DNA from: Tsukamurella sp. TY48 | Lineage (GTDB): Bacteria; Actinomycetota; Actinomycetes; Mycobacteriales; Mycobacteriaceae | Direction: 5' to 3' | Assembly (NCBI RefSeq): GCF_019656655.1 | Contig: NZ_BPMV01000001.1 | Coordinates: 1,736,001 to 1,800,000 of the forward strand | DNA: 64,000 nucleotides | Shown here: one piece after another, positions 11,990 to 52,515 of the stretch | How the letters are laid out: every line of letters begins with the position of its first letter | Position numbering within the stretch: the first letter of the stretch is position 1 | Program-made: the position numbers and the translations under genes | The notes under the pieces: generated by a model | Database searches by the model: none | The model's input: only the letters and a program-made list of their open reading frames with translations | What the model was told of the DNA's origin: nothing

Positions 11990-11998
11990 CGTGGGGAC

Positions 11999-23394: not shown

Positions 23395-24162
23395 GTGAGG
23401 AGAAGCGTACGAGTGCTCGGCGTCGACTTCGACGATCGGACCGTCGACGGGGCTCTGACGGAGCTCCGGGACGCGATCGCCGACACCCGGCGTCCGCACT
23501 CGGTGTTCTTCCCCAATGCCGCGACCCTCAACCTCGCCGCGGGCGACCCCGCCTACCGCGACGTGCTCAACGCCGCCGATTTCGTCTATCCCGACGGCAC
23601 CGGGGTCCGGTGGGCGGCGCGGATGCGCGGTGTGGACCTGCTGGCCAATCTCAACGGCACCGATGTGATCCCCGCGCTGCTCGCCGCCTCGCCCGGGCTG
23701 CGGGTCCACCTGCTCGGCAGTACCGAGGAGGTGAACGCCGCCGCAGCGGAATCGGTGCGGCGCAGCTACCCCGACATCGTGGTGGCGGGCCGCCACCACG
23801 GCTACTTCGACCACGACGATTCCGGCGCCGTGATCGACGAGATCAACGCGGCGGCACCCGATGTGCTCCTGGTGGGCTTCGGGAATCCACTGCAGGAGAA
23901 CTGGATCCACCACAACCGGTCCGATCTCCGCGTCCCTTTGATCGCCGGCGTGGGCGGGCTCTTCGGATTCTGGTCCGGAACCCGTACCCGCGCTCCGGGA
24001 TTCGCCCGCAGGATCGGGATGGAATGGGTCGACATCCTGCTCCGCGAACCGCACAAGGCCCGGCGTTACCTGCTGGGCAATCCCACCTTCCTCTACCGGG
24101 CGGCGCGCACGCGCGGACGCGACCTGGCGGAGCCCCCGGCCGATTCCGGGCCCGCGCACTGA
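23395..24162 (+). CDS. WecG/TagA/CpsF family glycosyltransferase
   Basis: A 255-residue GT26-type transferase. It shows the family blocks FPNAATLNLA, DFVYPDGTGV, VHLLGSTEE and LVGFGNPLQENWI. Relatives add N-acetylmannosamine or related sugars to lipid-linked precursors of wall polymers. The protein lacks transmembrane helices but probably docks at the membrane. The GTG at 23395 is the likely start; GATACT lies 8 nt upstream. It is separated from the main polysaccharide cluster by 5 kb, and converges on the GT-C-like gene. Confidence 0.9.
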   Translation: MRRSVRVLGVDFDDRTVDGALTELRDAIADTRRPHSVFFPNAATLNLAAGDPAYRDVLNAADFVYPDGTGVRWAARMRGVDLLANLNGTDVIPALLAASPGLRVHLLGSTEEVNAAAAESVRRSYPDIVVAGRHHGYFDHDDSGAVIDEINAAAPDVLLVGFGNPLQENWIHHNRSDLRVPLIAGVGGLFGFWSGTRTRAPGFARRIGMEWVDILLREPHKARRYLLGNPTFLYRAARTRGRDLAEPPADSGPAH

Positions 24163-29086: not shown

Positions 29087-31579
29087 TCAGGCGTCGGGCA
29101 GGCGCCGGGGCGCCGCGCTGCGCCGCAGGGCGGGGGCCACGGGACGGCCCCGCAGGTGTCCGTCGACGGTGCCGTCGACGATCGCCCGCCCGTACGCGAC
29201 GAGGGCCTCCTCGATCGCGTCCACGGTGTGATCGATATCGGCGTCGGTGTGCGCGGCGGAGTTCACGAAGGACTGGCCGAGCACGCCGTTGTCGAGCAGG
29301 CCCTGCAGGAACAGGGTGCGGTAGGCCTGGGACGGCGCACCGTCGGGACCGCGGGTCACGAAGACCTGACACGACGGGCGCCCGATGACCTGCACGTATT
29401 CGCCGAGTCCGGCACCCACGATGGCGTCGGTGGCGGCGTTCTCCAGCCGCCGGCCCGCGGTCTCCATCGCGCCGATCGGATCGGATTCGGCGTATTCGGC
29501 GACCACCGCGCGGAAGGCCGCCAGGCTCGCGGTCTCGGGACCGTGGGTGGTGGACAGCAGGAAGACCCGGTCGCTGTCGGTGTTCAGGCCGCCTAGCTCC
29601 ATGTACTCGCGCTTGCCGGCGAGCGCGGCCAGGGGGAAGCCGTTGCCCATGGCCTTGCCCCAGCAGGACAGGTCGGGGGTCACGCCGTAGAGGTCCTGCG
29701 CGCCGTGCTCGGACCAGCGGAATCCGGTGATCATCTCGTCGAAGACGAGCAGCGCCCCGTGCCGGTCGCACAGGGTGCGCACCCGGTCCAGGAAGCCGTC
29801 GACCGGTTCGGCGGTGGCGGTGGCGGCCTCGAGGAAGACGCAGGCGATCCGGCCCGGGTTCTCCTCGAACAGCCGCTCCAGGGAGCCGGGGTCGTTGTAG
29901 CGGAAGCGCAGGGTCTTGGCCGGGACCTCGGCGGGGATGCCGGCGTTCATGGCGGTGGTGCCGATGAACCAGTCGTCCACCGAGAAGAAGGGGTGATCGC
30001 AGGCGGCCACCAGGTCGCGGCCGGTGACGGCGCGGGCCAGGCGCAGCGCGGCGGTGGTGGCATCGGAGCCGTTCTTGGCGAACTTGACCATATCGGCGCC
30101 GGGCACCAGGCCCAGGAAGTCCTCGGCGGCGGCCACCTCCAGCGCGGTGGGCCGGCTGAAGTTGGTGCCGTGGGCGATGGCATCGGTCACGGCGGCCACC
30201 ACCCGCGGGTGGGCATGTCCCAGGGTCACGGCCCGAAGGCCCATGCCGTACTCGACGTACTCGTTGCCGTCGGCGTCCTGCACGCGCGCGCCCAGGCCGC
30301 GGGTGAGCACGGGCGCCATGTGCTCCGGGTACTGATCCGAACCGCGGGCGTAGGTGTGCGCGCCGCCGGGCACCAGCTCGTGCAGGCGGGCCTGCAGCCG
30401 GTTCGATGCGGTGAAGTCGCGGCGCACCGGCTCCTCGTCGGCGGGCGGTGCGGTCGGCTGTTCGGCCGGCTCTTCGGGGACGGCCGACGGTGCCGCCGGT
30501 GGTGCGGCGGTGGCCGGATCGACGACCAGGCGCCCGGCGAACGCCGGGTAGCCCGCCAGCAGTTCGTCGCGCAGGTCCGGCAGGGTCAGGAGAACGGGCC
30601 CGCCGCCCGCGGCGACGTCGGCCGGAGCCACGATGGGGATATCGGTGCCCGGCATGCGCCGCCCCTGTTTGCCGGGGCTGGCATCGGCGACGGCGGACAG
30701 CACGGTGCGGTCCAGTCCCGCGAGCGCGAACAACGCCACCGCGCGCGAGGCCGCGCCGTAGGCGGCCGGACGCCGTCCCGCGGCGGTCTCGGCCTGCGCC
30801 CACGTCCGCAGCGCACCGGCCTGCCGCTGCGCCGCGGCACCGAGGGTGCCCACCACGGCGGGATCGCGCAGGCCCGCGCGCTCCTCCTCGTCCAGCAGCC
30901 GGAAGACGGTGTCGTCGGGTGCCACAGTGCCGCGCACCACCGCCAGCAGTACGGTTCCGCCGTACAGATCGAACTCCCAGGCCGCGGCGATGCTCAGGCC
31001 CGCGCGGGCCAGCAGGCCGCTCAGTGCGTGCAACGAGTAGTACGCGAAGTGCCCGTGGCGCAGCGCATTCCACTGCTCGCCGGCCACGATCGCGCCGAGT
31101 GCGTGGTACTGCAGCAGCAGGACACCGCCGGGGGTGAGGGCCTCGGCTCGGCGGGCGAAGGCCGCGGCCTGATCGGGCTCGTGCATGATGCCGAAGCAGT
31201 CCACCACCACATCAGCGGGGCCGTCGGTGGGGGTGAGTCCGCGCTCGGCGAGCAGGGGCAGCCAGGTCCCGCCGTGCGGGCTGCCGAACTCGCGCACCGT
31301 GTTCCCGGTGAGCCAGCCGTCCGCCGCCGCGCGGGCCACGGCATCGGCGGCCTGGTCCCGCAGCGCCTGCGGTTCCACCCCCCGGGGCTCATCGGTCACC
31401 GTGTCGTCGTCGGCGAGCTGCGCGAGAGCGCAGGCACCGCAGAGGTCCATCGCCAGCGGATGCGCGGACTCGCCCGGCTCGACGGGGGTGTCGGCGGGCG
31501 GGAAGTGGTCGGCCGCGGGCACGGCGCCCAGGTCCAGCACGCGGTGCAGATCGCCGCTCCCGCAGCCCCGGCAGGCCAT
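29087..31579 (-). CDS. methyltransferase-like domain fused to GSA-type aminotransferase
   Basis: An 830-residue fusion. Residues 1-60 form a zinc-finger-like domain with Cys pairs CRGC and CGAC, as in sugar C-methyltransferases. The central domain follows that family, but its SAM-binding loop reads VREFGSPHGG in place of the usual E-G-x-N/D-G pattern, so it may not bind SAM. Residues 310-395 match the C-terminal domain of the same family (YGAASRAV, MPGTDIPI). From about 430 a class-III PLP aminotransferase like glutamate-1-semialdehyde aminomutase follows, with FDEMITGFR and the PLP lysine in CWGKAMGNG. It starts 2 nt after the SDR gene and ends a five-gene cassette. Confidence 0.88.
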   Translation of the reverse strand: MACRGCGSGDLHRVLDLGAVPAADHFPPADTPVEPGESAHPLAMDLCGACALAQLADDDTVTDEPRGVEPQALRDQAADAVARAAADGWLTGNTVREFGSPHGGTWLPLLAERGLTPTDGPADVVVDCFGIMHEPDQAAAFARRAEALTPGGVLLLQYHALGAIVAGEQWNALRHGHFAYYSLHALSGLLARAGLSIAAAWEFDLYGGTVLLAVVRGTVAPDDTVFRLLDEEERAGLRDPAVVGTLGAAAQRQAGALRTWAQAETAAGRRPAAYGAASRAVALFALAGLDRTVLSAVADASPGKQGRRMPGTDIPIVAPADVAAGGGPVLLTLPDLRDELLAGYPAFAGRLVVDPATAAPPAAPSAVPEEPAEQPTAPPADEEPVRRDFTASNRLQARLHELVPGGAHTYARGSDQYPEHMAPVLTRGLGARVQDADGNEYVEYGMGLRAVTLGHAHPRVVAAVTDAIAHGTNFSRPTALEVAAAEDFLGLVPGADMVKFAKNGSDATTAALRLARAVTGRDLVAACDHPFFSVDDWFIGTTAMNAGIPAEVPAKTLRFRYNDPGSLERLFEENPGRIACVFLEAATATAEPVDGFLDRVRTLCDRHGALLVFDEMITGFRWSEHGAQDLYGVTPDLSCWGKAMGNGFPLAALAGKREYMELGGLNTDSDRVFLLSTTHGPETASLAAFRAVVAEYAESDPIGAMETAGRRLENAATDAIVGAGLGEYVQVIGRPSCQVFVTRGPDGAPSQAYRTLFLQGLLDNGVLGQSFVNSAAHTDADIDHTVDAIEEALVAYGRAIVDGTVDGHLRGRPVAPALRRSAAPRRLPDA

Positions 31580-31581
31580 GC

Positions 31582-32598
31582 CTAGGCCGGGCGCATCGTG
31601 TCGTCCAGCGTGCCCGCCTCCTGCCGCGCCTTCAGGTGCGCGAGCCGGGTGTAGCGCTGGAAGAAGGCGTCCGAGGTGAGACCACGGGCGGTGTACTCGC
31701 GGTACAGCTCGGCGGCGCCCTGCGGCACCGTCCACTGCGCCTCGAACCCGAGTCCCTCACGGGCGCGGGAGAAGTCGACGCGGTAGGAGCGCGGGTCGGC
31801 ACCGGACTCACCGGTGATGTTGAGCGTGGAGCCGGGGACCGCGTCGACCACCGACTGCGCGATCTCGGCCACGGTCACGTTGTTGACCTCGGTGCCGATG
31901 TTGTAGGCCCGGCAGGAGATCTTCTCCACCGGCGCGGTGAGGCAGGTGGCGAAGGCGCGGGCGATGTCCTGCGCGTGCACCAGCGGCCGCCACGGCGTGC
32001 CGTCGGAGAGCACCTTCACCTCGCCGGTGAGGGTGGCGTAGCCCACCAGGTTGTTGAGCACGATGTCGGCGCGCAGCCGCGGCGAGAAGCCGAAGGCGGT
32101 GGCGTTGCGCAGGAAGACGGGGGCGAACCCCGAGTCCGCGAGGGCCGCGGCATCGTCTTCCACCCGCACCTTGCTCTCCGCGTACGGGGTGAGCGGGCGC
32201 AACGGGGCGTCCTCGTTGACCAGGCCGTCGCCCGCGGCGCCGTACACCGAACACGTGGAGGCGTAGAGGAACCGGGACACGCCGGCCTGCTTGGCCAGGC
32301 GCGCCAGGCGCGAGGAGGCGTGGTGGTTGATGTCGTAGGTGATCTGCGGTTCCAGTGCGCCCAGCGGATCGTTGGACAGGGCGGCGAGGTGGATCACGGC
32401 GTCGAAGCCGGTGAGCTGCTCCTCGGTCACATCGCGCAGGTCCACCGCGATGTCCGGGGGCTCGGGCGGCGCGACGCCCAGCGTGCAGTCGGCGAACAGG
32501 CCCGAATCGAGGCCCACCACGTCGTGGCCCTCCGCCTGCAGCAGCGGCACCATGACCGTGCCCAGGTATCCCTGGTGGCCGGTGACCAGAACCTTCAT
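31582..32598 (-). CDS. NAD-dependent sugar-nucleotide epimerase/dehydratase (SDR)
   Basis: A 338-residue extended SDR. The Rossmann motif is GHQGYLG near the N-terminus, the catalytic triad region is ASTCSVYG and the YxxxK motif is YAESK. Family relatives act on nucleotide sugars; whether this one epimerises, dehydrates or reduces cannot be read. GGAGG lies 6 nt before the ATG at 32598, and the start overlaps the PIG-L stop by 4 bp. The next gene begins 2 nt downstream. Confidence 0.9.
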   Translation of the reverse strand: MKVLVTGHQGYLGTVMVPLLQAEGHDVVGLDSGLFADCTLGVAPPEPPDIAVDLRDVTEEQLTGFDAVIHLAALSNDPLGALEPQITYDINHHASSRLARLAKQAGVSRFLYASTCSVYGAAGDGLVNEDAPLRPLTPYAESKVRVEDDAAALADSGFAPVFLRNATAFGFSPRLRADIVLNNLVGYATLTGEVKVLSDGTPWRPLVHAQDIARAFATCLTAPVEKISCRAYNIGTEVNNVTVAEIAQSVVDAVPGSTLNITGESGADPRSYRVDFSRAREGLGFEAQWTVPQGAAELYREYTARGLTSDAFFQRYTRLAHLKARQEAGTLDDTMRPA

Positions 32599-33248
32599 CG
32601 ACTTCCTCCGAACTCCACGATCGCCTTCTCCAGCATGAATCCCTCGGCATAGGGTGCGCGGCATTGGATTCCGCGCAGCCGGGCCAGGCCGAGGAAGGAC
32701 TCGTCATCGAACCAGTCGTGCGCGGTCTGCGACGGATAGCACTCGGTCAGCAACCGGGCCTTCGTCATCGCGGCGTACACGGTGAGCGGGTTCAGCGCCG
32801 TGGGACGCGGGGTGTCGGTCTCCCACTTGAGGATCTCGTAACCGAGGATCAGGTGGTCGCGGAACTCCGTGGGCACCAGTTCGGCGAGCTGACGGTGGTC
32901 CTGATGCGCATCGCCGCGGTGCGGCGCGAACACCAGGTCCGGGTCCGTCGAGCGACGGAATTCACTGAGCGCCTGCTTCTCCCGCTCCCAGTACGCGGGG
33001 GAACGCCCGTCGGGGAGATCGAAGACGGTGACCTGCAGGTCTGCGCCGGGCGCGAACGCGGCGAGCGCGGCCCGCTCCTCCGCCTCGCGCGGTGTGCCGC
33101 CGCCGCTGCCCACCCAGGCGCGCACTCGGACACCGGGATTCGCCTCGGCGATCTGCAACAGGGTGCCGCCCATGCCGATCGCGATGTCGTCGCAGTGCGC
33201 GCCGAGTACCGCGATCTCACGGACCGTTCCGGGCGAGAGTCCGATCAC
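32595..33248 (-). CDS. PIG-L family deacetylase
   Basis: A 217-residue zinc-dependent deacetylase of the PIG-L/LmbE family. The metal site is GAHCDDIAIG (AHxDD form, usual AHPDD) and the second His motif is AHQDHRQL. Members remove N-acetyl groups from GlcNAc derivatives, as in mycothiol and GPI synthesis. I prefer the GTG at 33248, which overlaps the RfbF stop by 4 bp (GTGA); a GTG at 33266 is also possible. In this operon it probably deacetylates an amino-sugar nucleotide or a lipid-linked sugar. Confidence 0.88.
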   Translation of the reverse strand: MIGLSPGTVREIAVLGAHCDDIAIGMGGTLLQIAEANPGVRVRAWVGSGGGTPREAEERAALAAFAPGADLQVTVFDLPDGRSPAYWEREKQALSEFRRSTDPDLVFAPHRGDAHQDHRQLAELVPTEFRDHLILGYEILKWETDTPRPTALNPLTVYAAMTKARLLTECYPSQTAHDWFDDESFLGLARLRGIQCRAPYAEGFMLEKAIVEFGGSR

Positions 33249-34027
33249 GAGTGGTCGTTCTCCCACAGCATCCAGAGGCGGTACCCCTGGGCGTAGCCGG
33301 CATCGAGTTCGGCGCGCTCCTTGAAGGTATCGGCCGGCTTCCAGAATCCGCGGTGCCGGTATCCGATCAGCCGATCCTCTTTGAGCAGGGCGCCGCAGGC
33401 GTCCGCCACCAGATCGCCGCCCTCCGGCAGATGGTCGAAGACCTCCTGGGTGAGCACGAAGTAGCCGCCGTTCTCCCAGATCGGGAACTCGGAGACCGGC
33501 GTGATGCCCGTGACCTTGTCGTCGTCGTTCACATCGACGCAGTGGAAGGAGGACTGCGGCGGCACCAGCAGCATGGAGGCGGCGGCGCCCTCGGCCTTGA
33601 CCTTGTCGATGATGGTGTTCATCGGGGCGTCGCTGAGCACATCGGCGTAGTTGGCGAGGAAGTACTCGTCACCGTCGAGGAAGGGGCGCACGCGCCGGAG
33701 TCGTTCGCCGATGGCGGATTCCAGGCCGGTGTCGACGAAGTTGATCGTCCAGTCCGACATGTCCGAGTGCAGCAGTTCCACCTCGCCGCCGCGGATCACG
33801 AAATCGTTCGAGGCCGTCTCGCGGTAGTTGAGGAAGTAATCCTTGATGTGGCCGGCGCCGTAGCCGAGGCAGAGGATGAATTCGGTGTGCCCGAAGTGGG
33901 CGTAGTACCGCATCACGTGCCAGATCAACGGCCGCGGGCCCACCATCTGCATGGGCTTGGGCACGGTGTCGTCGGCACTGCCCCGCATCCGCATGCCGTA
34001 TCCGCCGCAGAACAGGACGACCTTCAT
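33245..34027 (-). CDS. RfbF-like glucose-1-phosphate cytidylyltransferase
   Basis: A 260-residue nucleotidyltransferase. It resembles RfbF: CGGYGMRMR near the start with KPMQMVG, then PLIWHVMRYYAHFGH, ENGGYFVL and GFWKPADTFKERAEL. RfbF makes CDP-glucose from CTP and glucose-1-phosphate. No CDP-glucose 4,6-dehydratase lies in the window, so the product sugar and even the nucleotide are uncertain. AAGGAG lies 7 nt before the ATG. It begins 13 nt after the C-methyltransferase gene. Confidence 0.88.
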   Translation of the reverse strand: MKVVLFCGGYGMRMRGSADDTVPKPMQMVGPRPLIWHVMRYYAHFGHTEFILCLGYGAGHIKDYFLNYRETASNDFVIRGGEVELLHSDMSDWTINFVDTGLESAIGERLRRVRPFLDGDEYFLANYADVLSDAPMNTIIDKVKAEGAAASMLLVPPQSSFHCVDVNDDDKVTGITPVSEFPIWENGGYFVLTQEVFDHLPEGGDLVADACGALLKEDRLIGYRHRGFWKPADTFKERAELDAGYAQGYRLWMLWENDHS

Positions 34028-34040
34028 GGTGTGCTCCTTG

Positions 34041-35282
34041 TCAGCCGACCCGCGCGGGCAGGTCGGCGGAGTGCAGGGTGGGAAGCGGGTACACGAGCTC
34101 GGCGCCCCACTCCGCGACGTGGGCGAGCTGCGCGGTGATCTCGGTCTCCAGATTCCACGGGAGGACCACGATCACATCGGGCCGGTCTTCGTCGATCCGC
34201 TCGGGCGCATGGATCGGGATCCGGCTGCCCGGCGTGTAGCGGCCGTGCTTGTAGGGGTTGCGGTCCACGGTGTACTCGAGCAGGTCGGGCCGCACGCCGC
34301 AGTAGTTGAGCAGGGTGTTGCCCTTACCGGGCGCGCCGTAGCCGACCACCTTCTTGCCCTCCGCCTTCCGGTCGAGCAGGAAGCGGAGCAGGTCCTGGCG
34401 GGTGGCATCGGCGCGGTCCTGCAGCCCGGTGTACCCGGCCACCTCGTGCAGCCCCGCCTCGGCCTCCAGGGCCAGCACCTCGGCGACCCGGGGCGACGGG
34501 GTGGCGCCGGCCTCCACCGGGCGCGCCCACAGCCGGATGGAGCCGCCGTGGGTGGGGATCAGCTCGACGTCGACCACCTCGAGCCCGGCGGTGGCCAGGG
34601 CCCGCTGCGCCGAGTACACGGTGTAGTAGCTGAAGTGCTCGTGGTAGATGGTGTCGAACTGGCCGAGCTGCACCAGGTTCAGCGCGTGGTGCACCTCGAT
34701 GCTGAGCCAGCCGTCGTCGGCCAGCAGGGTGCGCAGCGACCGGGTGAAGCCGAGGACGTCCGGGACGTGCGCGTAGACGTTGTTCGCGGCGATCAGATCG
34801 GCCTTGCCGTGTTCGGCGACCACCTGCGCGGCGGTCTCCTCGCCCAGGAAAGCGGTCAGCGTGGGCACGCCCTTCTCGCGGGCCGCGGCGCCCACGTTCA
34901 CCGAGGGCTCGATGCCCAGGCACGGGATGCCGCGGGCCACGGCGTGCTGCAGCAGGTAGCCGTCGTTGCTGGCCACCTCGATCAGCAGGCTGTCCGGGCC
35001 GAGGCCGAGCCGGTCGGCGGATTCGTCCACGAAGCGCTTCGCGTGCGCCACCCAGCTGTCGCTGAAGGACGAGAAGTACGCGTACTCGGAGAAGGTCTCC
35101 TCCGGCAGGATCAGCGCGGGGATCTGCAGCAGCAGGCAGTTCTCGCACAGCCGCAGGTGCAGCGGGTACGTGGGCTCGGGCAGGTCCAGCTCATCGGCCG
35201 TCAGGAACTTCTCACACGGCGGGGTGGCGCCGAGGTCCACCACGCTGCGCAGGCGCTCCGAGCCACACACACTGCAGGTCAT
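34041..35282 (-). CDS. SAM-dependent sugar C-methyltransferase
   Basis: A 413-residue enzyme of the TylCIII/NovU type, which adds a methyl group to a carbon of a keto-deoxysugar nucleotide. The N-terminal zinc domain has CSVCGS and CENC. The SAM motif is intact (LIEVASNDGYLL), the catalytic-region IYHEHFSYY is present, and the C-terminal domain begins GYGAPGKGNTLLNYCG. It is the first gene of the five-gene cassette. Upstream on the minus strand lie TAGCAT and TACAGT boxes, giving a leader of roughly 60-80 nt. Confidence 0.92.
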   Translation of the reverse strand: MTCSVCGSERLRSVVDLGATPPCEKFLTADELDLPEPTYPLHLRLCENCLLLQIPALILPEETFSEYAYFSSFSDSWVAHAKRFVDESADRLGLGPDSLLIEVASNDGYLLQHAVARGIPCLGIEPSVNVGAAAREKGVPTLTAFLGEETAAQVVAEHGKADLIAANNVYAHVPDVLGFTRSLRTLLADDGWLSIEVHHALNLVQLGQFDTIYHEHFSYYTVYSAQRALATAGLEVVDVELIPTHGGSIRLWARPVEAGATPSPRVAEVLALEAEAGLHEVAGYTGLQDRADATRQDLLRFLLDRKAEGKKVVGYGAPGKGNTLLNYCGVRPDLLEYTVDRNPYKHGRYTPGSRIPIHAPERIDEDRPDVIVVLPWNLETEITAQLAHVAEWGAELVYPLPTLHSADLPARVG

Positions 35283-35390: not shown

Positions 35391-37010
35391 TCATCGTCCG
35401 AGTTCGACGGTGCCCGCCGGATATCCGCCCCCGGTGTCGCGCCCGGTCTGTGCCAGTGCCATCGGCTGCAGGTCCACCGTGTGGGTGGCGTCGGGTTTGC
35501 GCTCGTCCCACTGCACCCGGACCCGCAGCGAATAGGTCCCCGGGCGCAGGTAGGGCAGCTCGACGGTGTCCGTCACCTCGGCCGCCGGGGGCACCGCGGG
35601 GGCCCCCGCGTAGGGCTCGGTGGTCAGCAGGCCCGCGAGATCGACGGCGCCGGGGATGCTGGCGCGCACGCGCCCGAGCGTGTCGAGCAGGTCGTAGGTC
35701 ACCGTCCACCGGTCGTGGGTCGGCGCCGAACCGGCGTTGGTCCACCGCACATCGAGGACGCGGCGTCCGTCGTCCGTCGTCCGGGGACCGAGGGTGGCCG
35801 CGCTGTAGCGGTATCCGGCGTACTTGTTGGCCCGCTCCCACAGTTCGTACTGCTCGGCCGTCATCCGCTCGGGCCGGCTCTGCGCCGGGAACCCGGTGCT
35901 CGAGGTGCTGGAGACGTGCTGTCGCACCACGTCGTTCGCTCCCCGGCGGTAGTACTCGAGGTCGGTGCCGCCGGTCAGCAGCTGGGGCGACCACTCGGAC
36001 AGGACCGGTGCCGTGCGGTATCGCTGCGCCAGCACGCCGATCAGCGGATCGCGGTCGATCACGTACTGGGACCACCGGTTCTGCGCCCAGGTGGGGAAGA
36101 TCTCCATGCCGCCGAGCGAGTCGGCGCGGATGCCGACCGGGCGGCGCAGCCCGGCCAGGTCGGGATGGTCGCGCAGCAGCAGCCGGGCGATCTCGGGGTT
36201 GCCCATCGGGGACACGATCTGGGTGCTGCGGAAGGCCCGCAGCGTGGTTCCCACCAGCCGGTTCGCCGACGCCGCCGTGAGCGTCTGGTCGCGGTACTGG
36301 CTGAAGTAGCCGAGCTCGGCCCTGCTCCGTTCGGGCGCCGGACCCGGTGCGCCGAGGCTGTCGCGGGCGAAGGACATGTGGTTCTCGCTGAAGTCCCCGT
36401 AGCCCGAGAACTCGAACACCGCGACCCGCTCGTCCCGGTCGTACCGGCGGCCCAGGGCCTCGACCAGACCGGTGAAGGCGTCGAGGTAGGCGGCGTCGTT
36501 CCACCGCGGGATCACGTACGAGACACCGTCCTTCACGGCCGTCGTCGACGCACCGGGGAGGGTCCGCAGCCACGCGGGCGCCGTGGTGACCACATCGCCG
36601 GGCTTGGTGGCGTCGCAGCAGGAGTTGAACGCGGTGACCCGGAATCCCACGCGTTTGCCCTGTTTCGCCGCATCGGCGATGTAGGTGTCGAGCTGGTCGA
36701 AGGAGTACTTCTCGGTGTCGGTCGCGTCGGCGGGCACCGTGCGCGGGTCCTTCGGCTGCAGGAAGGACCACGGGATGCGGACGCTGACATCGGCCACGCC
36801 GGGCCATGCGGGCAGGTCCCGGTTCAGCTCCGAGGTCTGGGGGAAGGGCCCGGTCAGGAGGTTCTCGTACTGCCCGCGCAGGGGATTGACCAGATCGGGT
36901 TCCGAGAAGGGAAGGTCGCCCGGCGGGGGCGGCGCGGAGGTGGTGGAGAGGGTGACGGCGGCGGCCGCGGCGAGCGCCACCGGCCCCAGCAGCCATGCCG
37001 TGCGGGTCAC
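35391..37010 (-). CDS. exported DUF4832 protein
   Basis: A 539-residue protein with an N-terminal hydrophobic signal/anchor (about residues 4-22). It resembles DUF4832/DUF4874 proteins, which have a TIM-barrel glycoside-hydrolase-like fold; visible blocks are VRIPWSFLQP, KQGKRVGFRVTAF and VFEFSGYGDF, and a beta-sandwich domain seems to follow at about 440-539. Candidate acidic residues are present, but the catalytic pair cannot be assigned. The GTG at 37010 overlaps the Wzy stop by 4 bp. It is last in the Wzz-Wzz-Wzy operon, so it probably processes or modifies the polymer outside the membrane. Confidence 0.8.
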   Translation of the reverse strand: MTRTAWLLGPVALAAAAAVTLSTTSAPPPPGDLPFSEPDLVNPLRGQYENLLTGPFPQTSELNRDLPAWPGVADVSVRIPWSFLQPKDPRTVPADATDTEKYSFDQLDTYIADAAKQGKRVGFRVTAFNSCCDATKPGDVVTTAPAWLRTLPGASTTAVKDGVSYVIPRWNDAAYLDAFTGLVEALGRRYDRDERVAVFEFSGYGDFSENHMSFARDSLGAPGPAPERSRAELGYFSQYRDQTLTAASANRLVGTTLRAFRSTQIVSPMGNPEIARLLLRDHPDLAGLRRPVGIRADSLGGMEIFPTWAQNRWSQYVIDRDPLIGVLAQRYRTAPVLSEWSPQLLTGGTDLEYYRRGANDVVRQHVSSTSSTGFPAQSRPERMTAEQYELWERANKYAGYRYSAATLGPRTTDDGRRVLDVRWTNAGSAPTHDRWTVTYDLLDTLGRVRASIPGAVDLAGLLTTEPYAGAPAVPPAAEVTDTVELPYLRPGTYSLRVRVQWDERKPDATHTVDLQPMALAQTGRDTGGGYPAGTVELGR

Positions 37011-38359
37011 GCGGCCGCCTCGACGACGCCCGGTTCCTCGGCTTGGTTCACCCGCGCCAAGCGGTAGGCGACACCGGCCAGGGCGAGCAGGATCCAGGTG
37101 AGGTACCAGATCTGTTGGAAGCCGGAGGTGTCCAGGATCAGGCAGATCACGATGAGGGCCGCGACCGCGCCGCTGATGCCGCCGGCCAGCTCCGCGAGCG
37201 GTCCGTCGGCGGCGGTGGACGCGCGCATCGCGAGGTAGAGCGCGATCGCCAGGGCCACACAGAAACTGACCAGGCCCACGATCCCCGACTCCATCAGCCG
37301 CGACAGGTATTGATTGTCGAGGACCGGCTGTTTGAGAGTGGGGTACGCGCCGACGCCCTGGCCGAACCAGAGGTGTTTCTCCACGTTGTCGGCGACGAAG
37401 GCGCGCCCGATCTCGCGCGACTGGATGGACGAGTCGGTCGACGAGCCCGCGAAGGTCTCGATCAGCGCGGTGACGAGCTTGAGCTGCGCCACCGTCCCGA
37501 CGACCACCACGGCCGCACCGGTGCCCAGCAGCAATGCCAACCGCTGCACGGGCCACCGCCAGCACATCACGCCGATCGCGGCCGCCCCGCCCACCACGGC
37601 GGACCGCGAGACGGTGGAGAGATCGGCCACCAGCACGATCAGCAAGCAGGCCAGCCACAGCCGCGTCCCCGCGCCGCGGGCCTTGGCGTTGAAGTACAGG
37701 GCCGCGGCCAGGGGCGCGATCACCGTGAGGACCGCGCCCAGTTCCAGGGGGTGGCCCGCGCTGCCCTGGGGCCGGTTCACGCCGGCGCGGGCGAGGTTGC
37801 GCAGGATCACCCAGTCGTTCGCCTTGGTCAGCCCGGGAACCCGGAAGCTGGCGGCGATGTCCATGCCGGTGGCCGCGAAGAGGAGGGCGAACAGGGAGCT
37901 CACCGTGGCGCCCAGGACGAGGCCGCCGAGGATCACGCGCAGCCCGTGCTCGGTGCGGACCACCGTGAGGATCAGCAGCACCAGGCCGGCCAGGAAGAGG
38001 TCGGTGATCACGTAGCGGTCGATCGAGGGCTGCGATTCCGCCGGGATGCCGCGCGCCGAGGCCAGCGCGTAGGAGATGAAGGAGGCGCTCACGTAGCCGA
38101 GGACCGCGGCGATCACCACCCAGTCCTTCACCAGGTGCGCGTGTCCGGTGAGGACCGTGGCCAGCCACAGCAGCGATCCGCACGCGAACAACGTGCCGGC
38201 GAAGGACATGCCGTACGTGCCCGGCACCGAGATCACCTGGCGCATCGACAGCAGCGAGAACGAGGCGACGGCGATGAACAGCGCCCCCGCGGGCGCGAAC
38301 CGTTCGATCCGGGAGACCGTGCGGGAACCGGTCTCCACCAGGTCGATTCCGCCGATCAC
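37007..38359 (-). CDS. O-antigen ligase/polymerase family protein (Wzy-like)
   Basis: A 450-residue membrane protein with about 12 helices and a large extracytoplasmic loop holding GAGVNRPQGSAGHPLELG, which matches the Wzy_C/RfaL family block (NRPxGxxxHPxELG) with its conserved Arg and His. Such proteins polymerise or ligate lipid-linked oligosaccharide units at the outer face of the membrane. It overlaps both neighbours by 4 bp in the order Wzz-like, Wzz-like, Wzy, DUF4832. Confidence 0.88.
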   Translation of the reverse strand: MIGGIDLVETGSRTVSRIERFAPAGALFIAVASFSLLSMRQVISVPGTYGMSFAGTLFACGSLLWLATVLTGHAHLVKDWVVIAAVLGYVSASFISYALASARGIPAESQPSIDRYVITDLFLAGLVLLILTVVRTEHGLRVILGGLVLGATVSSLFALLFAATGMDIAASFRVPGLTKANDWVILRNLARAGVNRPQGSAGHPLELGAVLTVIAPLAAALYFNAKARGAGTRLWLACLLIVLVADLSTVSRSAVVGGAAAIGVMCWRWPVQRLALLLGTGAAVVVVGTVAQLKLVTALIETFAGSSTDSSIQSREIGRAFVADNVEKHLWFGQGVGAYPTLKQPVLDNQYLSRLMESGIVGLVSFCVALAIALYLAMRASTAADGPLAELAGGISGAVAALIVICLILDTSGFQQIWYLTWILLALAGVAYRLARVNQAEEPGVVEAAA

Positions 38360-40770: not shown

Positions 40771-41832
40771 TCACATCCTGCGCAGCATCCGGGCGAGGTG
40801 ATCGGCCATGACGTCGGAGGTGAACCGCTCCCGGGCGCGCTCGGCGGCGCGGCGCCCCATCTCGATCCGCAGCGCATCGTCGCCGAGCAGCGATTCGATC
40901 GCCGCCGCGAGTGCCGCGGGATCGCCCGCGGGAACGGTGAGGCCGGTGACTCCGTGCTCGACGTAGTCGGCGATACCGGGATTGTCGGTGACCACGATCG
41001 GCCGGCCGCTGGCCATCGCCTCCAGCACCACGGTGAGACCGGACCCGGTCACCGTGGGGTGCAACGCGACCGCCACCACGCTCGCGCGGCGGTACAGGTC
41101 GCGGATACGGCCGTTGAGCCGCTCGGTGTGCAGGGCGACGAGGCCCTCCGGGGCCGCGAAGGGGAGCGCGGAGGCCAGTTCGAGGCGGGTCTCGGCGCGC
41201 CGCTCACGCACCGCCGCCACGGCGGCGATCAGCGTGGCGTGATCGCGGAAGCGATCCTCGCCCGCGCTCATCACCAGGCCGGGACGCTCGGGCAGGGGCT
41301 GCTCGCAGTAGAAGTCGGTATCGATGCCCAGCGGGATGAACTGCAGGCGGGACTCCGGTACGCCCCACTCGGCGCCGATCACCGGGAGCACGGCGGAGCA
41401 CTGCGCCCACACCGCGCCGGCGCGGGGCAGAGCCTTCGCGGCGAGCGCACCGTGCACGCGATCCGTCCCCGCGCGGGTGGTGAGCCAGCCGATGCCGGCG
41501 GCCACGGGCGTGCGTCCGGTGAGCAGGGCGGGCACGCCCGTCCGCTCGTCGTAGGCGAGCACGGCGTCGGCATCGCCGGTGCGGCCGCTGCCGGTGAGGG
41601 CCTCGACGAATTCGTAGCCGCCGGTGCGGTGGCGCACGGCGCGAGCGACGCGGGAGGCGGCCCGGCCGCCCGGTCCGGCGCCGAATCCTGCGGTGGCGAA
41701 ACGCACGTCGATGTCGTGCCGCGCCAGTTGATGGAGGCCGTACGGTGAACGATCCGGGACCTCACCGGCGTCGTGACGGCGAGCCCAGTCCTGCTCGGAC
41801 AGACCTCCGGCCAGCGGCACCGTCACCCGCAC
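40771..41832 (-). CDS. family 4-type glycosyltransferase
   Basis: A 353-residue GT-B glycosyltransferase. The donor-site region GSGLTVVLEAMASGRPIVVTD has the family's final Glu, but the first Glu of the E-x7-E motif is replaced by Gly or Ser. A QFIPLGIDTDFY block precedes it. I prefer the GTG at 41832, since GGAGG lies 5 nt upstream; a GTG at 41826 is an alternative. It is divergent from the flippase, with only 35 bp between starts. The sugar and linkage are unknown. Confidence 0.85.
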   Translation of the reverse strand: MRVTVPLAGGLSEQDWARRHDAGEVPDRSPYGLHQLARHDIDVRFATAGFGAGPGGRAASRVARAVRHRTGGYEFVEALTGSGRTGDADAVLAYDERTGVPALLTGRTPVAAGIGWLTTRAGTDRVHGALAAKALPRAGAVWAQCSAVLPVIGAEWGVPESRLQFIPLGIDTDFYCEQPLPERPGLVMSAGEDRFRDHATLIAAVAAVRERRAETRLELASALPFAAPEGLVALHTERLNGRIRDLYRRASVVAVALHPTVTGSGLTVVLEAMASGRPIVVTDNPGIADYVEHGVTGLTVPAGDPAALAAAIESLLGDDALRIEMGRRAAERARERFTSDVMADHLARMLRRM

Positions 41833-41867
41833 CTGATCCTCCGCTCGACCTCGCCCCGGAATCGGGC

Positions 41868-43415
41868 GTGCCCGATTATTCGATCGCAACAGAGGGTAAC
41901 GGTACCCAGCCCCCCACTGCACAGGGACGTGCCTCCTCCGGGCGCATCGCCCGCGCCTTCGGGCTGCAGATGGTGGCGCGCGTCGTGGGCCTCATGGCGT
42001 CGATCTTCACCATGGCGCTCACCAGCCGTCACCTCGGGCTGACCTCGTACGGCCACCTGCAGACCGCGATCGCCTTCGTGGGCCTGTGGACCAGCTTCAC
42101 CGAGCTGGGCATCGGTTCCGTGATCGTGCGCCGGGTCACCTCCGGCGTCGACGATCTCGCACACCTGGTCCGGGTGAGCATCGGCCTGTCCCTCGCGTAC
42201 TGCGTGCCACTCGGGGCGCTGACCCTGTTCATGGGCTGGGGCATCTACGCCGATCAGGGCACGGAGGTGATCGCGATGATCGCGATCGTCTCCACCAGCC
42301 TGGTGCTCACCACGCTGAGCAGTTGTTTCCAGCCGATCTTCATGACCAACGTGCGATTCGGCGCGGTCGCGGCCTCCGATGTGCTCGGCCGCGTCTTCTC
42401 GCTGGCGGGCACGGTGTGGCTGATCTCGATCGACGCACCGCTCGTGTGGTTCGCCGCGGTCCAGGTGATCCCCCCGCTGATCGCGCTGGTCATCCAGGCG
42501 GTGGCGGCCCGCCGGCTGGTGGACGTGACGCCCATCTTCTCCGCGAGCGAGAGCTGGCACCTGGTCCGGGAGAGCCTGCCCCAGACGGGCGTGCTCATCA
42601 TCGCGGCGCTCTACTGGCGGTCGGACGCCTTCCTGCTCAGCATCCTGAGCACGCCGCAGCAGCTGGGCGGGTACAGCCTCGCGTACGGCATCGCCTTCAA
42701 CGCCACGGTGATCTCCACGGTGTACCTCGCCTCGGCCCTGTCGACGATGACCAACCTGTGGGCCACCGACCGCGACGAGTTCGCCCGGTTCACGGTGCGC
42801 AGCATGCAGGCAATGCTGTTCCTGGGCGCCCCGATGGTGGTGATCGGCGTGATCCTCTCCTCGGGCCTGATCCACCTGATCAGTGACGACGAGTTCGTCC
42901 AGATCGGCGGTATCGCACTGGGACTGCTGTTCATCGCGGTGGCCATCCGGTTCGTGAACGCGGTGCTCAGCCAGGCACTGTTCGCCGCCCACGATCAGGT
43001 CTTCCTGCTCCGGCTGAACGTGGTGAACCTGATCGGCAACATCGTGCTCAACCTGATCCTGATCCCGCCCTTCGGCGCCGCGGGTGCCAGTGTCGCGCTC
43101 ATCGCCAGCGAGACCGTGGGCCTGCTGGTGGCCACCTGGCGGCTCACCCGGCGCAGCCCGTACCGCACGCCGTGGCGGTTCTGCCTGCATCTGACGGTTC
43201 CGCTCGCCGCGACGGCGGCCGTCTGCGTCCTACTGCGGGATCAGCCGGTGCTTCTCACAGCACTCCTGGCCGGGGTGGTCTACCTGGTCGTCAACGCGGT
43301 GCTCGGCCCCGTCCGGCCCGCGGCGGTGCGCCAGATGGTGGCCCGCGCCGAGGGCGAGGAGTCCGACGAGCCCGGTGCCCCCGAATCCACCGCCTCCGAA
43401 GGGAGCACACCGTGA
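41868..43415 (+). CDS. polysaccharide flippase (Wzx-like, MOP superfamily)
   Basis: A 515-residue protein with 14 expected helices. It begins with FGLQMVARVVGLMASI and contains LTSRHLGLTSYGHLQTAIAF, typical of Wzx-type flippases that move undecaprenyl-linked units across the membrane. The frame upstream of 41868 only shadows the divergent glycosyltransferase, so GTG at 41868 is preferred. The gene overlaps the GT2-GT4 gene by 4 bp (GTGA), so export and assembly are coupled in expression. Confidence 0.9.
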   Translation: MPDYSIATEGNGTQPPTAQGRASSGRIARAFGLQMVARVVGLMASIFTMALTSRHLGLTSYGHLQTAIAFVGLWTSFTELGIGSVIVRRVTSGVDDLAHLVRVSIGLSLAYCVPLGALTLFMGWGIYADQGTEVIAMIAIVSTSLVLTTLSSCFQPIFMTNVRFGAVAASDVLGRVFSLAGTVWLISIDAPLVWFAAVQVIPPLIALVIQAVAARRLVDVTPIFSASESWHLVRESLPQTGVLIIAALYWRSDAFLLSILSTPQQLGGYSLAYGIAFNATVISTVYLASALSTMTNLWATDRDEFARFTVRSMQAMLFLGAPMVVIGVILSSGLIHLISDDEFVQIGGIALGLLFIAVAIRFVNAVLSQALFAAHDQVFLLRLNVVNLIGNIVLNLILIPPFGAAGASVALIASETVGLLVATWRLTRRSPYRTPWRFCLHLTVPLAATAAVCVLLRDQPVLLTALLAGVVYLVVNAVLGPVRPAAVRQMVARAEGEESDEPGAPESTASEGSTP

Positions 43416-45388
43416 GCCGCGAGCTCGACCGTGCGTATCTGGCGGGCGGACTGCGCTCGGCGCCGCCGCCCGCCGTGCCCACGCGGCGCGATCTCGCCGT
43501 CGCGATCGTCGCCTACCGCAACCCCGGCGATCTCCGGCAGTGCCTCACGTCGGTGGCGGAGCACCTCCCGGGAACACCGGTCCTCTTGTGGGACAACTCC
43601 TTCCCCGCCGATCCCGAGGTCCCCGCCGTGGTGGGCGAATTCGCCGATGCCCGGTACCTCGGGGACGGCCGCAATCACGGTTTCGCCGCGGGCGTCAACC
43701 GGATCGCGGCCGAGGTGCCCGATCACGATCTGCTGCTGCTCAATCCCGATGCGGTGATCCGGGACGGGCTGACGGCAACGCGCGCCGCGCTGGGCCGCAC
43801 CGGCGTCGCGGCCGCAGCTCCCCCGGTGCGGGATCCCGAGGACGGGGCGGGGATCCGGCGCCCCTGGGACGTCGCGCACCGCCGCCGCGGAGTGCTGCGG
43901 GCCTTGGTCTCGCGGGCCGGATACGCCGAGCGCCTGCGCGGCACACCGCTGTCCGATCTCTACGCCGATCCGCCGGAGGAGGTGTCCGGTTACCTCACCG
44001 GCGCCTGCCTCGCGGTCTCCCGGGACGCGTGGAACGCGCTGGGGCCCTTCGACGAGGAGTTCTTCCTCTACGGTGAGGAATCCGACTGGCAGGCGCGGGC
44101 GCGGGCCGCGGGATGGCGGCTGCTGCTCACCGGGGACGCCGGGATCGACCACAGCGGGCACGGCACGGTCCGTAACGACGGTGCCGCGAGCCGTCGTTCC
44201 ACGGACCTGTTGCGCGCCAACACGGCCCTGAACCTCGAGCACGAGCTCGGCGCCCGCGCGGCCGGTGGCTACCTGGCCGGGGCCTCGCTCCTGGACCGGG
44301 TGCAGCGGTCCAAGCGTGCGGCCACGCGAGCCCCGGCCGCGGCGAAGCCGGCGATCGTGATCACCACCAACCGGCTCGTCTTCGGCGGCGCCGAACGCCA
44401 GCACGTGGTGTTGGCCACCGAGCTCGCGCGCCGCGGCTACCCGGTGACGATCGTCTGCATGCAACGGTTCGGCCCGCTGGTGAGCGAGATCCCGCACGGT
44501 GTGCGGGTGGTGCGCCAGCCGTGGTGGGCTCCGGCTCTCGACCTCCCGCCGGGACCGCAGATCCTGATCAGCGGCGATACCAACACCGAGACCGGTTTCG
44601 CCACCCTGTGGCGGGCCGCCGGTCGGGACCGGAAGTGGTTGGTGGCGGCGCATATTCCGCCGGAGCTCGACCGGCCGACGTATTCGGCGGGGTTGGCCGC
44701 GGCCATGCGCCGGGCCGACGGATTCATCGCCCTCTCGCCTCGCCACTGGGAGGAGGCCACCGCGCATCAGGACCTCGGCTCCACGGTGTTCACCGCCCCC
44801 AACGGCGTGGCCTCCGCCGCTTCCCTCGACGGCGTTCCCGCCCGTCCGCCGGTCACCGGACCGCCGCATCTGGTGATGCTCTCGCGCATCGTCGAACACA
44901 AGAACCCGCACCTGCTGGTCGAGGCCCTGGCCGGCCTGCGCGATCTCCCGTGGGAGCTGTCGATCTTCGGCGACGGTCCCGATCGCGCGCGCCTCGAGGC
45001 GCTCACGCCCGGCGATCTGCGCGACCGGATCCATTGGCGCGGATGGTCGCCGGGACCCGAGCACGCCCTCGCGGACGCCGACCTCGTGTGTGTCCCGAGC
45101 CGCTCGGAGGCCTTCCCGCTGGTGATCCTGGAGGCGATGGCGCGCAGGGTGCCGGTGGCGGCATCGGCGGTGTGCGCGGTGCCCGACATGCTCGACGGTG
45201 GCCGCGCGGGCGCCGTGGTGGAGGACATCACGGTGGCCGGCTGGCGCGCCGCGCTGAGTGAACTGCTGGCCGATACCGCGCGGTGGAAGCAGCTCGGGGA
45301 GCGCGGATTCGACCGGATGCGCGAGCGGTACACGATCGAGGCCATGGCCGATGCCTACGAGGCGGCCTTCGCGGGTGTGCTGCGGTGA
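43412..45388 (+). CDS. bifunctional GT2-GT4 glycosyltransferase
   Basis: A 658-residue fusion. Residues 25-310 are a GT2 domain with AIVAYRNPGDL, a NPDAV acidic site, and EEFFLYGEESDWQARAR, resembling rhamnosyltransferases. Residues 330-658 are a GT4 domain with FGGAERQHVV, HIPPELDRPTYSAG and the E-x7-E motif EAFPLVILE. The fusion would add two sugars in succession. It overlaps the flippase and the next glycosyltransferase gene by 4 bp each. Confidence 0.9.
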   Translation: MSRELDRAYLAGGLRSAPPPAVPTRRDLAVAIVAYRNPGDLRQCLTSVAEHLPGTPVLLWDNSFPADPEVPAVVGEFADARYLGDGRNHGFAAGVNRIAAEVPDHDLLLLNPDAVIRDGLTATRAALGRTGVAAAAPPVRDPEDGAGIRRPWDVAHRRRGVLRALVSRAGYAERLRGTPLSDLYADPPEEVSGYLTGACLAVSRDAWNALGPFDEEFFLYGEESDWQARARAAGWRLLLTGDAGIDHSGHGTVRNDGAASRRSTDLLRANTALNLEHELGARAAGGYLAGASLLDRVQRSKRAATRAPAAAKPAIVITTNRLVFGGAERQHVVLATELARRGYPVTIVCMQRFGPLVSEIPHGVRVVRQPWWAPALDLPPGPQILISGDTNTETGFATLWRAAGRDRKWLVAAHIPPELDRPTYSAGLAAAMRRADGFIALSPRHWEEATAHQDLGSTVFTAPNGVASAASLDGVPARPPVTGPPHLVMLSRIVEHKNPHLLVEALAGLRDLPWELSIFGDGPDRARLEALTPGDLRDRIHWRGWSPGPEHALADADLVCVPSRSEAFPLVILEAMARRVPVAASAVCAVPDMLDGGRAGAVVEDITVAGWRAALSELLADTARWKQLGERGFDRMRERYTIEAMADAYEAAFAGVLR

Positions 45389-46407
45389 GCGGCCGCCTGC
45401 TGTGGCTGTCGCCGTGGATGCGCCCGCTGGCGCGCGTGTACTGCGAGGCGCTCGCCGACCGCGGCTGGGAGGTGGTGCTCGTGACCTCCGATCAGCACCC
45501 CGAATCCGATGCCGCCCGGCCGTACGAGTGGGTCCTCGATCCGCGGCCCAAGACGCCGGCCACGTGGGCGCCGTTCGCGCGCACGCTGGGCGAGGCCAGG
45601 CGATTCGCGCCCGATGTGGTGGTCACCGAACTGGTGCGGGATCCACGGTGGATCGCGCTCGCGGGCCGCGCCCCCCGGGTGCGGCTGGTGCACGACGACC
45701 GCCCGCACGATTCCGGTGAGGCCCTCCCCCGCTGGGAACGCGCCCTGTTCGACCGCTGGGGCGGTTCGGCCGCGGCGACCGTCGCCTTCAGTGATTACGT
45801 CCGCGGCGCCGTGGGAGCGGACGGATTCGCGCCGCTCACCAGCGATCTGGCCGAATCGCTCGTTCCCCCGGTGGTCGCCGCCGAGGGCCGCAGGGACTTC
45901 GTGGCGGTCGGCCGGCTCAACGGCTACAAGAACCTCGACGTCACGCTCCGGGCGTGGGAGCGTCATGCCACCGGCCCCGGGTGGCGCGGAGACGAATTGG
46001 TGCTCATCGGCGATGGTGACGCGCCGCTGCGCGATGCGCCGCACGTGCGCCGGGTGGCCGGCGCCTACTCCTACGCCGATGTGATCGCGCCGCTCGCCGC
46101 CGCCAAAGGGTCGGTGGCGCATTACCGCCGGGCCACGCAGAGCGGGGTGCAGGTACTGGCCATGCAGCTCGGCGTCACCCCGATCGTCTCCGACCGCGGT
46201 GCGCTGCCGGAGTTCCAGCCGCCGGGCGAGCCGCCGATCGCGGTGGACGATGTGGCCGGGCTCGCAGCGGCTTTCGACGCGCTGGCCGATCCCGCCGAGG
46301 CGGCCCGCCGCGGGACCGCGGCGCGGGCCCACTACCTCGCCGAGTACGCGGCCCCGGTTTCGGCGGCTCGCCTCGACGAGGTGCTCAGCCGCGCCGCGCG
46401 GGCCTGA
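45385..46407 (+). CDS. GT-B glycosyltransferase
   Basis: A 340-residue protein resembling family 1/4 glycosyltransferases, with VAVGRLNGYKNLDVTL and QLGVTPIVSDRGALPEF in the donor domain. The typical E-x7-E motif is not clear. GTG at 45385 overlaps the preceding stop by 4 bp. It is third in the flippase operon, and its 3' end overlaps, in convergent orientation, the next glycosyltransferase by 23 bp. Confidence 0.83.
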   Translation: MSGRLLWLSPWMRPLARVYCEALADRGWEVVLVTSDQHPESDAARPYEWVLDPRPKTPATWAPFARTLGEARRFAPDVVVTELVRDPRWIALAGRAPRVRLVHDDRPHDSGEALPRWERALFDRWGGSAAATVAFSDYVRGAVGADGFAPLTSDLAESLVPPVVAAEGRRDFVAVGRLNGYKNLDVTLRAWERHATGPGWRGDELVLIGDGDAPLRDAPHVRRVAGAYSYADVIAPLAAAKGSVAHYRRATQSGVQVLAMQLGVTPIVSDRGALPEFQPPGEPPIAVDDVAGLAAAFDALADPAEAARRGTAARAHYLAEYAAPVSAARLDEVLSRAARA

Positions 46408-48102: not shown

Positions 48103-48678
48103 TCAGGCGCCGCCGAAGGCCTCGCGCAAGGACGGTGCCGCGCCGTCCTTCGCGGATCGCACGTAGTGCAGCGCCGCGCCGTCGCGCCCCGTGGTGGGCC
48201 AGTCGATCGCCAGATCGGGATCGAAGGCGTCGATCTCCCGGTCGAGATCGGGGGCGTACTCGGACGAGCACAGGTACATCACCGTGGACTGGTCCTCCAG
48301 CGACAGGATCGCGTGCCCCAGGCCCGCGGGGAGGTACACCGCACGGCGGTCCACATCGTCGAGCAGGACGCTGTCCCAGGTGCCGAAGGTGGCCGAATCG
48401 CGTCGCAGGTCCACGATCACATCCAGGAAGGCGCCCCGCACGCAGGTCACGTACTTCGCCTGGCCGGGCGGATTCAGTGTGTAGTGCACGCCCCGCAGCA
48501 CCCCGGCGGCGGACACCGAGCAGTTCGCCTGCTGCAGCTCCGGCATCGGCGAGCCGGTGGCCGCCTCGAACTCGGAAGCCTTGAACCACTCCAGGAACCG
48601 GCCGCGATCGTCGCCGAACTGCTGCGGCGTGAACTCGAACGCCCCGGGCACCGTCAAACCGCGCGCCTGCACTCCCAT
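48103..48678 (-). CDS. rmlC: dTDP-4-dehydrorhamnose 3,5-epimerase
   Basis: A 191-residue cupin that catalyses the third step of dTDP-L-rhamnose synthesis. It closely resembles mycobacterial RmlC: QANCSVSAAGVLRGVHY with the catalytic His, QAKYVTCVRG, TFGTWDSVLLDD, and STVMYLCSSEY with the catalytic-region Tyr. The usual GLAHGF loop reads GLGHAI. AAAGGGG lies 8 nt before the ATG. Unlike the classic arrangement, RmlB and RmlD are not nearby. L-rhamnose links arabinogalactan to peptidoglycan in this order and may also serve the local polysaccharide. Confidence 0.88.
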   Translation of the reverse strand: MGVQARGLTVPGAFEFTPQQFGDDRGRFLEWFKASEFEAATGSPMPELQQANCSVSAAGVLRGVHYTLNPPGQAKYVTCVRGAFLDVIVDLRRDSATFGTWDSVLLDDVDRRAVYLPAGLGHAILSLEDQSTVMYLCSSEYAPDLDREIDAFDPDLAIDWPTTGRDGAALHYVRSAKDGAAPSLREAFGGA

Positions 48679-52439: not shown

Positions 52440-52515
52440 TCAGCGCGATCCCACTTAGATAGGGGTCCGAAAGGCCTGCTCAAGGCCGCAACTTCGGATC
52501 AACCCCGGGGTGTTC

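Follow-up and report, generated by a model that had tools for sequence, protein, structure and literature searches.

A conserved predicted nucleotide-sugar cassette of Mycobacteriales with a C-methyltransferase homologue shortened in its cofactor region

What kind of residue is made by a compact gene cassette that encodes a C-methyltransferase, a cytidylyltransferase-like protein, a deacetylase, an epimerase-like protein and a methyltransferase-aminotransferase fusion? The question is raised by a stretch of Tsukamurella sp. TY48 DNA of 64,000 nucleotides (contig NZ_BPMV01000001.1, positions 1,736,001 to 1,800,000), hereafter the window. All five open reading frames (ORFs), namely MT1, CT, PIGL, SDR and the MT2-AT fusion, are found on the minus strand at 29087-35282 (Table 1). 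They are spaced as tightly as the original prediction had described, with 13 nt between MT1 and CT, a 4-bp overlap of SDR and PIGL (ATGA), and two nt between the SDR stop and the fusion. PIGL and CT share a further 4-bp overlap (GTGA) if PIGL starts at the GTG at 33248. An alternative GTG at 33266 would lengthen the PIGL ORF; most relatives align with this longer frame only from residue 3 to 7, while the close relative G010 aligns from residue 1, and the start at 33248 is likely, not settled. The cassette is real, conserved and uncharacterised, and its kind has already been glimpsed in print from the side of another protein, DUF4910 (PMC4000134, main text). We lean towards the reading that its product is a single sugar or sugar-like residue, nucleotide-activated, branched by a C-methyl group and, in cassettes with AT, aminated, which would go into a surface polysaccharide of the Wzx/Wzy type.

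The reach of the arrangement is seen in a scan of a genome collection with an MT2 alignment, in which loci were found through two MT2 patterns and the best 80 of 197 were kept. These 80 named loci are biased to MT2-type cassettes; locus-content hits below identity thresholds of 38-50% (set for this analysis) were dropped, and some of the relatives' gene calls come from a simple GC-position script. Their hosts are Mycobacterium, Mycolicibacterium, Mycolicibacter, Nocardia, Rhodococcus, Gordonia, Williamsia, Antrihabitans, Aldersonia, Tsukamurella and metagenome-assembled genomes. Gene order was counted in the 75 loci in which 3.9 kb or more of sequence precedes MT2. Because the orthologues keep the order MT1-CT-PIGL-SDR in 61 of these 75, the gene set is, as judged from gene order, far beyond chance. 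The gene-neighbourhood comparison proposed in the original prediction thus clearly finds the order kept in other genomes. The idea that this order is unique does not hold: it is widespread, and a related neighbourhood was published in 2014 from the DUF4910 side (PMC4000134, main text).

Nor does the set stop at five genes, as first supposed. In relatives, a 184-amino-acid RmlC-like gene lies antisense between SDR and MT2, and the full order MT1-CT-PIGL-SDR-RmlC(antisense)-MT2 is kept in 53 of the 75 loci. A gene of about 195 amino acids on the cassette strand had also been considered for this gap in relatives; its frames proved to be noise, and the gap is in fact filled by the antisense RmlC-like gene. 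Neither the window genome nor G010 has the RmlC-like gene at this position. When the window genome was searched with the cassette RmlC alignment, a match at E 4.7e-101 was found 16.6 kb from the cassette, in a gene that exceeds the rmlC cut-off and that we call RmlCx. By this match RmlCx is a further member of the cassette, relocated in the window. A second RmlC-family gene of this locus lies on the minus strand at 48103-48678 (PF00908; 147.5 bits, just below the rmlC cut-off of 155.75).

The protein families were also counted across 249 genomes of the same order, at thresholds of 1e-80 for AT, 1e-70 for MT2 and CT, and 1e-20 for DUF4910, which miss more divergent copies. CT is found in 37 genomes, AT in 29, MT2 in 25 and DUF4910 in 11. 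CT accompanies MT2 in 25 of 25 genomes and AT in 28 of 29 (the exception is G224), and all 11 DUF4910 genomes carry both CT and AT. DUF4910 marks a sister version of the cassette that lacks MT2; named examples come from Agrobacterium pusense pAt1, Qingshengfaniella and Streptomyces sp. KN37. Its RmlC gene lies on the strand opposite to MT1 and CT in Agrobacterium pusense and Qingshengfaniella, and on the same strand in Streptomyces sp. KN37. Campylobacter Cj1295 presumably carries DUF4910 as well. Following DUF4910, a protein of about 430 amino acids is encoded in Streptomyces sp. KN37 (8974-10266 of locus L165) and in G112 (8948-10234 of locus L141), the G112 copy being without a Pfam match.

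MT2 and DUF4910 nearly exclude each other. Among the 37 CT genomes, 24 have MT2 only, 10 DUF4910 only, one both and two neither (G152, G256), which gives a Fisher p of 2e-6 with relatedness ignored; the window genome itself has no DUF4910 match (E 1e-20). The split could be one of lineage alone. G160, the sole genome with both, speaks against this as a single case, since it carries MT2 and DUF4910 in two separate cassettes. G178 has one AT cassette in which neither protein was found. The modified-carbohydrate neighbourhoods published around DUF4910/CA_C2195 resemble the present cassette in that an NDP-sugar (nucleoside diphosphate sugar) epimerase, a nucleotidyltransferase, an S-adenosylmethionine (SAM) methylase and glycosyltransferases surround one odd gene; their clades include actinobacteria and alphaproteobacteria, a surface polysaccharide was the proposed product, and the DUF4910 reaction was left open (PMC4000134, main text). 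They differ from the window genome, which has MT2 in place of DUF4910, and the words PIG-L, aminotransferase and cytidylyltransferase are absent from the main text of that paper, supplements aside.

The nucleotide to which the residue would be linked is suggested by CT, which had been described as an RfbF-like cytidylyltransferase. The likeness stands: at E 0.001 no Pfam family matches CT, but the solved RfbF 1tzf does so at 5.7e-41. Membership in RfbF proper does not, as CT fails the RfbF equivalog TIGR02623 with 176.4 bits against a cut-off of 300.25. The CT proteins of G027 and Agrobacterium score 196.4 and 212.0, and a control rfbF adjoining rfbG scores 419.7. An E-K motif before the NGG motif, which we take to act in sugar-phosphate binding, is absent from 62 of 62 cassette CTs read and 8 of 8 aligned, and present in three of three rfbF controls and in 1tzf. 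D129 and D233, presumably metal ligands, are invariant in 11 aligned rows of CTs and controls. By these measures CT is a clade outside RfbF, whose substrate is probably something other than plain glucose-1-phosphate.

In line with the original prediction, no protein exceeds the TIGR02622 cut-off for CDP-glucose 4,6-dehydratase in any of six genomes, that of the window and those of five relatives (controls, 1 of 14). The cassette thereby departs from the RfbF/RfbG pathways of CDP-deoxysugars, such as Campylobacter CDP-fucofuranose, which likewise combine a cytidylyltransferase with a 3,5-epimerase and a reductase that work on a CDP sugar (PMC12369002, in part). MT1 and RmlCx need a ketone, whose source must then be either SDR or a dTDP sugar. 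The best solved match of SDR is 6vo6, a putative sugar-nucleotide epimerase/dehydratase (5.3e-30), which we take to be Campylobacter Cj1427, an enzyme presumed to oxidise a nucleotide heptose at C4 with no accompanying dehydration.

MT1 aligns over its full length with the sugar 3-C-methyltransferases MtmC (4rv9, 2.7e-79) and TcaB9, and has counterparts of TcaB9 Y76, H181, Y222, E224 and H225, positions mutated in Protein Data Bank (PDB) entries; residue numbers were taken as the chain index less two, an assumption that agrees with the mutants named in those titles. The SAM motif SNDG and the stretch YHEH are found in 74 of 74 MT1 orthologues read. MT1 thus keeps, as aligned, the catalytic residues of a SAM-dependent sugar C-methyltransferase. 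Methyltransf_13 and Methyltransf_14 are matched in both MT1 and the fusion, and PIG-L, Epimerase and Aminotran_3 are matched too. PIGL meets the gathering score of PF02585 (52.2 against 28.2) and is BshB1-like. The best solved matches of AT are glutamate-1-semialdehyde aminomutases, the HemL enzymes, but AT falls below the hemL cut-off (TIGR00713, 221.2 against 527.3) and exceeds that of PRK06209; a relative of AT with 36% identity, presumably the true HemL, is encoded elsewhere in the genome. Deacetylation by PIGL and amination by AT are predictions from enzyme family only.

Every substrate, the sequence in which the enzymes act, the final product and what MT2 does are inferred from these assignments. 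CT would couple CTP to a phosphorylated precursor, probably not plain glucose-1-phosphate. SDR would form a ring ketone, or reduce it later, with no 4,6-dehydratase involved; the 6vo6 enzyme presumably does likewise. RmlCx would epimerise, and MT1 would C-methylate, a carbon next to the ketone, AT would convert a carbonyl to an amine, and PIGL would strip an N-acyl group. MT2 would carry out or assist the step taken by DUF4910 proteins in the sister cassettes.

Several observations weigh against this proposal. Sets are partial or rearranged in 14 of the 75 loci, and only MT1 and MT2 are seen in 7 of the 80. AT is missing at threshold from 8 of the 25 MT2 genomes, so that the amine is not universal. 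The enzyme activities are predictions from sequence, and the sequence of MT2 is in itself no proof that SAM binding fails. The host also encodes a dTDP-glucose 4,6-dehydratase, RmlB, elsewhere in the genome (435.2 bits against a cut-off of 365.1), so MT1, RmlCx and SDR could instead act on a dTDP sugar. This opens the alternative of two parallel pathways, in which MT1, RmlCx and SDR would make a C-methylated sugar from the dTDP-4-keto-6-deoxyglucose of the housekeeping RmlA/RmlB, CT, PIGL and AT would make a separate CDP-linked amino compound, and both would enter the same glycan. It draws further on the solved relatives of MT1, TcaB9 and KijD1, which their entry titles show with dTDP or dTDP sugars, on the missing E-K motif of CT, and on the MT2 genomes that lack AT. 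The presence of CT in every MT2 genome, together with the conserved MT1-CT-PIGL-SDR order, points to one pathway instead, and a CDP route is feasible, as a Campylobacter 3,5-epimerase acts on CDP-4-keto-6-deoxyglucose (PMC12369002, in part). We regard two pathways as unlikely and retain the single residue as the preferred product.

The novel component is MT2, predicted originally to be a methyltransferase fused to AT. What stands is the fold. MT2 retains the zinc-binding and C-terminal C-methyltransferase domains (Pfam), and its confident AlphaFold model (predicted local distance difference test, pLDDT, 92.6) has C3-methyltransferases as nearest solved structures, with Z scores of 36.0-38.0 and root-mean-square deviations of 2.3-2.8 over 353-359 aligned residues; the best match outside these enzymes has a Z of 13.6. 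What does not stand is much of the SAM region. The match of MT2 to the Methyltransf_23 model does not begin until position 80 of 164, and about 35-45 residues after motif I are missing in alignments with 10 and 8 MT2 rows; in MT1 this segment contains an acidic residue that we assign to motif II. Of 80 MT2 sequences, 79 have SPHGG as motif I (SNDG in MT1), and all 80 have RHGH as the catalytic stretch (YHEH in MT1). Unlike MtmC, TcaB9 and KijD1, whose fold it shares, MT2 has lost three of the five tested catalytic positions: Y222 and E224 are changed to R and G, and Y76 is without a counterpart in the alignment. H181 and H225 are kept (H133 and H177 in the window). MT2 therefore belongs, by predicted fold and not by cofactor site, to the C-methyltransferases, and is probably unable to bind SAM in the usual way.

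Could MT2 have remained a methyltransferase, with an unusual mode of SAM binding, and add a second C-methyl group? The retained domains, the fold and the two kept histidines would agree with this, as would locus L143 of G256, where a methyltransferase with a full Methyltransf_23 match (11414-12571) lies between SDR and AT, the position that MT2 takes in Mycobacteriales. The truncated Methyltransf_23 match, the replacement of both motifs across the loci and the missing SAM-domain residues argue against it, and we consider it quite improbable.

We tentatively entertain another role for MT2, as a new type of enzyme derived from a sugar C-methyltransferase, which would have lost its SAM site and kept active-site histidines of the carbanion-forming machinery. 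It might perform SAM-free carbanion chemistry, for example an epimerisation or isomerisation, on the CDP-keto sugar of the cassette, replacing the unrelated DUF4910, while the CT clade would activate a substrate other than glucose-1-phosphate. As a whole this proposal is speculative and, in our estimate, less probable than not by a good way. If MT2 takes over the DUF4910 step, a reaction on an amide or acyl group would be just as conceivable as one through a carbanion.

The fusion of MT2 to AT bears on the same question. Fusion was scored as no stop between the MT2 and AT matches; assembly errors are possible, and some Tsukamurella loci are in both locus sets. AT is present in 26 of the 80 named loci, and its adjacency to MT2 is not constant. 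One frame spans both proteins in the window, in G010 (1 of 17 in the second locus set) and in 6 of the 26 named loci (L061, L065, L066, L067, L089 and L113), all six from Mycobacterium or Mycolicibacterium; in the remaining loci tested they are separate genes or not adjacent. In a 27-row tree, at least three changes between the fused and separate states, whether gains or losses, are required on branches with good support. Because the fused rows fall into two separate clades, the tree supports functional coupling of MT2 and AT, even though 8 of the 25 MT2 genomes lack AT. Such coupling would also suit an MT2 that has no catalytic activity and serves AT or MT1 as a scaffold or allosteric partner, a role with which the shortened SAM region and the retained zinc-binding and C-terminal domains agree. 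Against a dead protein stand 62 invariant columns in 56 MT2 sequences (55 of the 80 loci are taken into this alignment), which include H102, H133, R174, H175, G176 and H177 and look like an active site, and the AT-free MT2 genomes count against a partner of AT. We hold the scaffold to be somewhat unlikely.

Two simpler ideas about AT were dropped. AT does not always accompany MT2, as the AT-free genomes show, and the two have no significant association in the 37 CT genomes (Fisher p = 0.22, relatedness ignored). Nor does one specific gene replace AT after MT2: the genes found there in 30 loci differ and include glycosyltransferases, an MspA-like protein, a luciferase-like monooxygenase and a flippase. 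In some Nocardia loci an MspA-like porin gene follows MT2 (9068-9808 in locus L084), and its cluster has members in 14 of the 80 loci. Kansosamine, a C-methylated and aminated sugar, was considered as the product, and nothing in the literature searched links it to the cassette. No characterised pathway with this gene set, of which the original prediction likewise knew none, was found in the literature searched, where searches were partly aimed elsewhere and subscription papers lay mostly outside coverage.

The surroundings agree with a nucleotide-sugar function, as first proposed. Because a flippase, a Wzy-like protein, glycosyltransferases and a bacterial sugar transferase lie alongside, the cassette sits in what is by gene content a surface-polysaccharide locus of Tsukamurella (Table 1).

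Table 1. Features of the cassette and its surroundings, in window positions.
Feature	Position	Strand	Details
MT1, SAM-dependent sugar C-methyltransferase (predicted)	34041-35282	minus	413 amino acids; Methyltransf_13/_23/_14 (Pfam)
CT, RfbF-like nucleotidyltransferase of divergent clade	33245-34027	minus	260 amino acids
PIGL, PIG-L/LmbE-type deacetylase (predicted)	32595-33248	minus	PF02585 1.1e-13
SDR, extended short-chain dehydrogenase/reductase, NAD-dependent epimerase or dehydrogenase (predicted)	31582-32598	minus	338 amino acids; PF01370 1.8e-43
MT2-AT fusion protein	29087-31579	minus	830 amino acids; single open frame; two nt after SDR stop
MT2 half, C-methyltransferase homologue, shortened SAM region and changed motif I	30494-31579	minus	Methyltransf_23 at 80-161 of 164
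AT half, class III pyridoxal phosphate (PLP) aminotransferase, PRK06209 family	29090-30424	minus	NF004856 682.8 bits, cut-off 486
RmlCx, RmlC-like 3,5-epimerase (predicted)	51885-52439	plus	TIGR01221 163 bits, cut-off 155.75
Wzy/O-antigen ligase-like protein, locus context	37007-38359	minus	PF04932 1.9e-9
Glycosyltransferase, locus context	40771-41922	minus	PF13692 9.9e-20
Polysaccharide flippase (Wzx-like), locus context	41745-43415	plus	PF01943 1.4e-17
Glycosyltransferase, locus context	45283-46407	plus	PF13439/PF13692
Bacterial sugar transferase, directly after RmlCx, locus context	52510-54117	plus	PF02397 1.1e-67
WecG/TagA/CpsF glycosyltransferase, locus context	23395-24162	plus	PF03808 9e-51

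Cassette proteins are also encoded on plasmid records. Of 72,556 records in a collection with an incomplete gene table, 33 encode CT-like proteins (E 1e-40), 31 AT-like proteins (E 1e-80) and only three MT2-like proteins (E 1e-20), the last from Tsukamurella, Gordonia and Pseudonocardia. Cassettes lie on records filed as plasmids in Tsukamurella tyrosinosolvens (plasmid 14) and Gordonia terrae (pPE105), a hint of transfer. Pseudonocardia autotrophica plasmid pPA12743CP carries MT2 with a nearby RmlC-family gene, and no CT is listed within 12 kb in that incomplete table. Two Tsukamurella genomes (G013, G002) hold two cassettes each, one of those in G013 beginning at a contig end, inside the SDR gene.

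The new points are an MT2 that appears to be SAM-less, its near-exclusion with DUF4910, the MT2-AT fusion in two clades and a cytidylyltransferase clade outside RfbF. A public record names CT a 'glucose-1-phosphate cytidylyltransferase', MT2 a 'class I SAM-dependent methyltransferase' and AT a 'glutamate-1-semialdehyde 2,1-aminomutase', and the evidence questions all three names. The near-exclusion offers a handle on the DUF4910 reaction, left open in 2014 (PMC4000134, main text). If the proposal is true, an undescribed surface sugar would be common to members of many Mycobacteriales genera, among them Mycobacterium, Mycolicibacterium, Nocardia, Rhodococcus, Gordonia, Williamsia and Tsukamurella.

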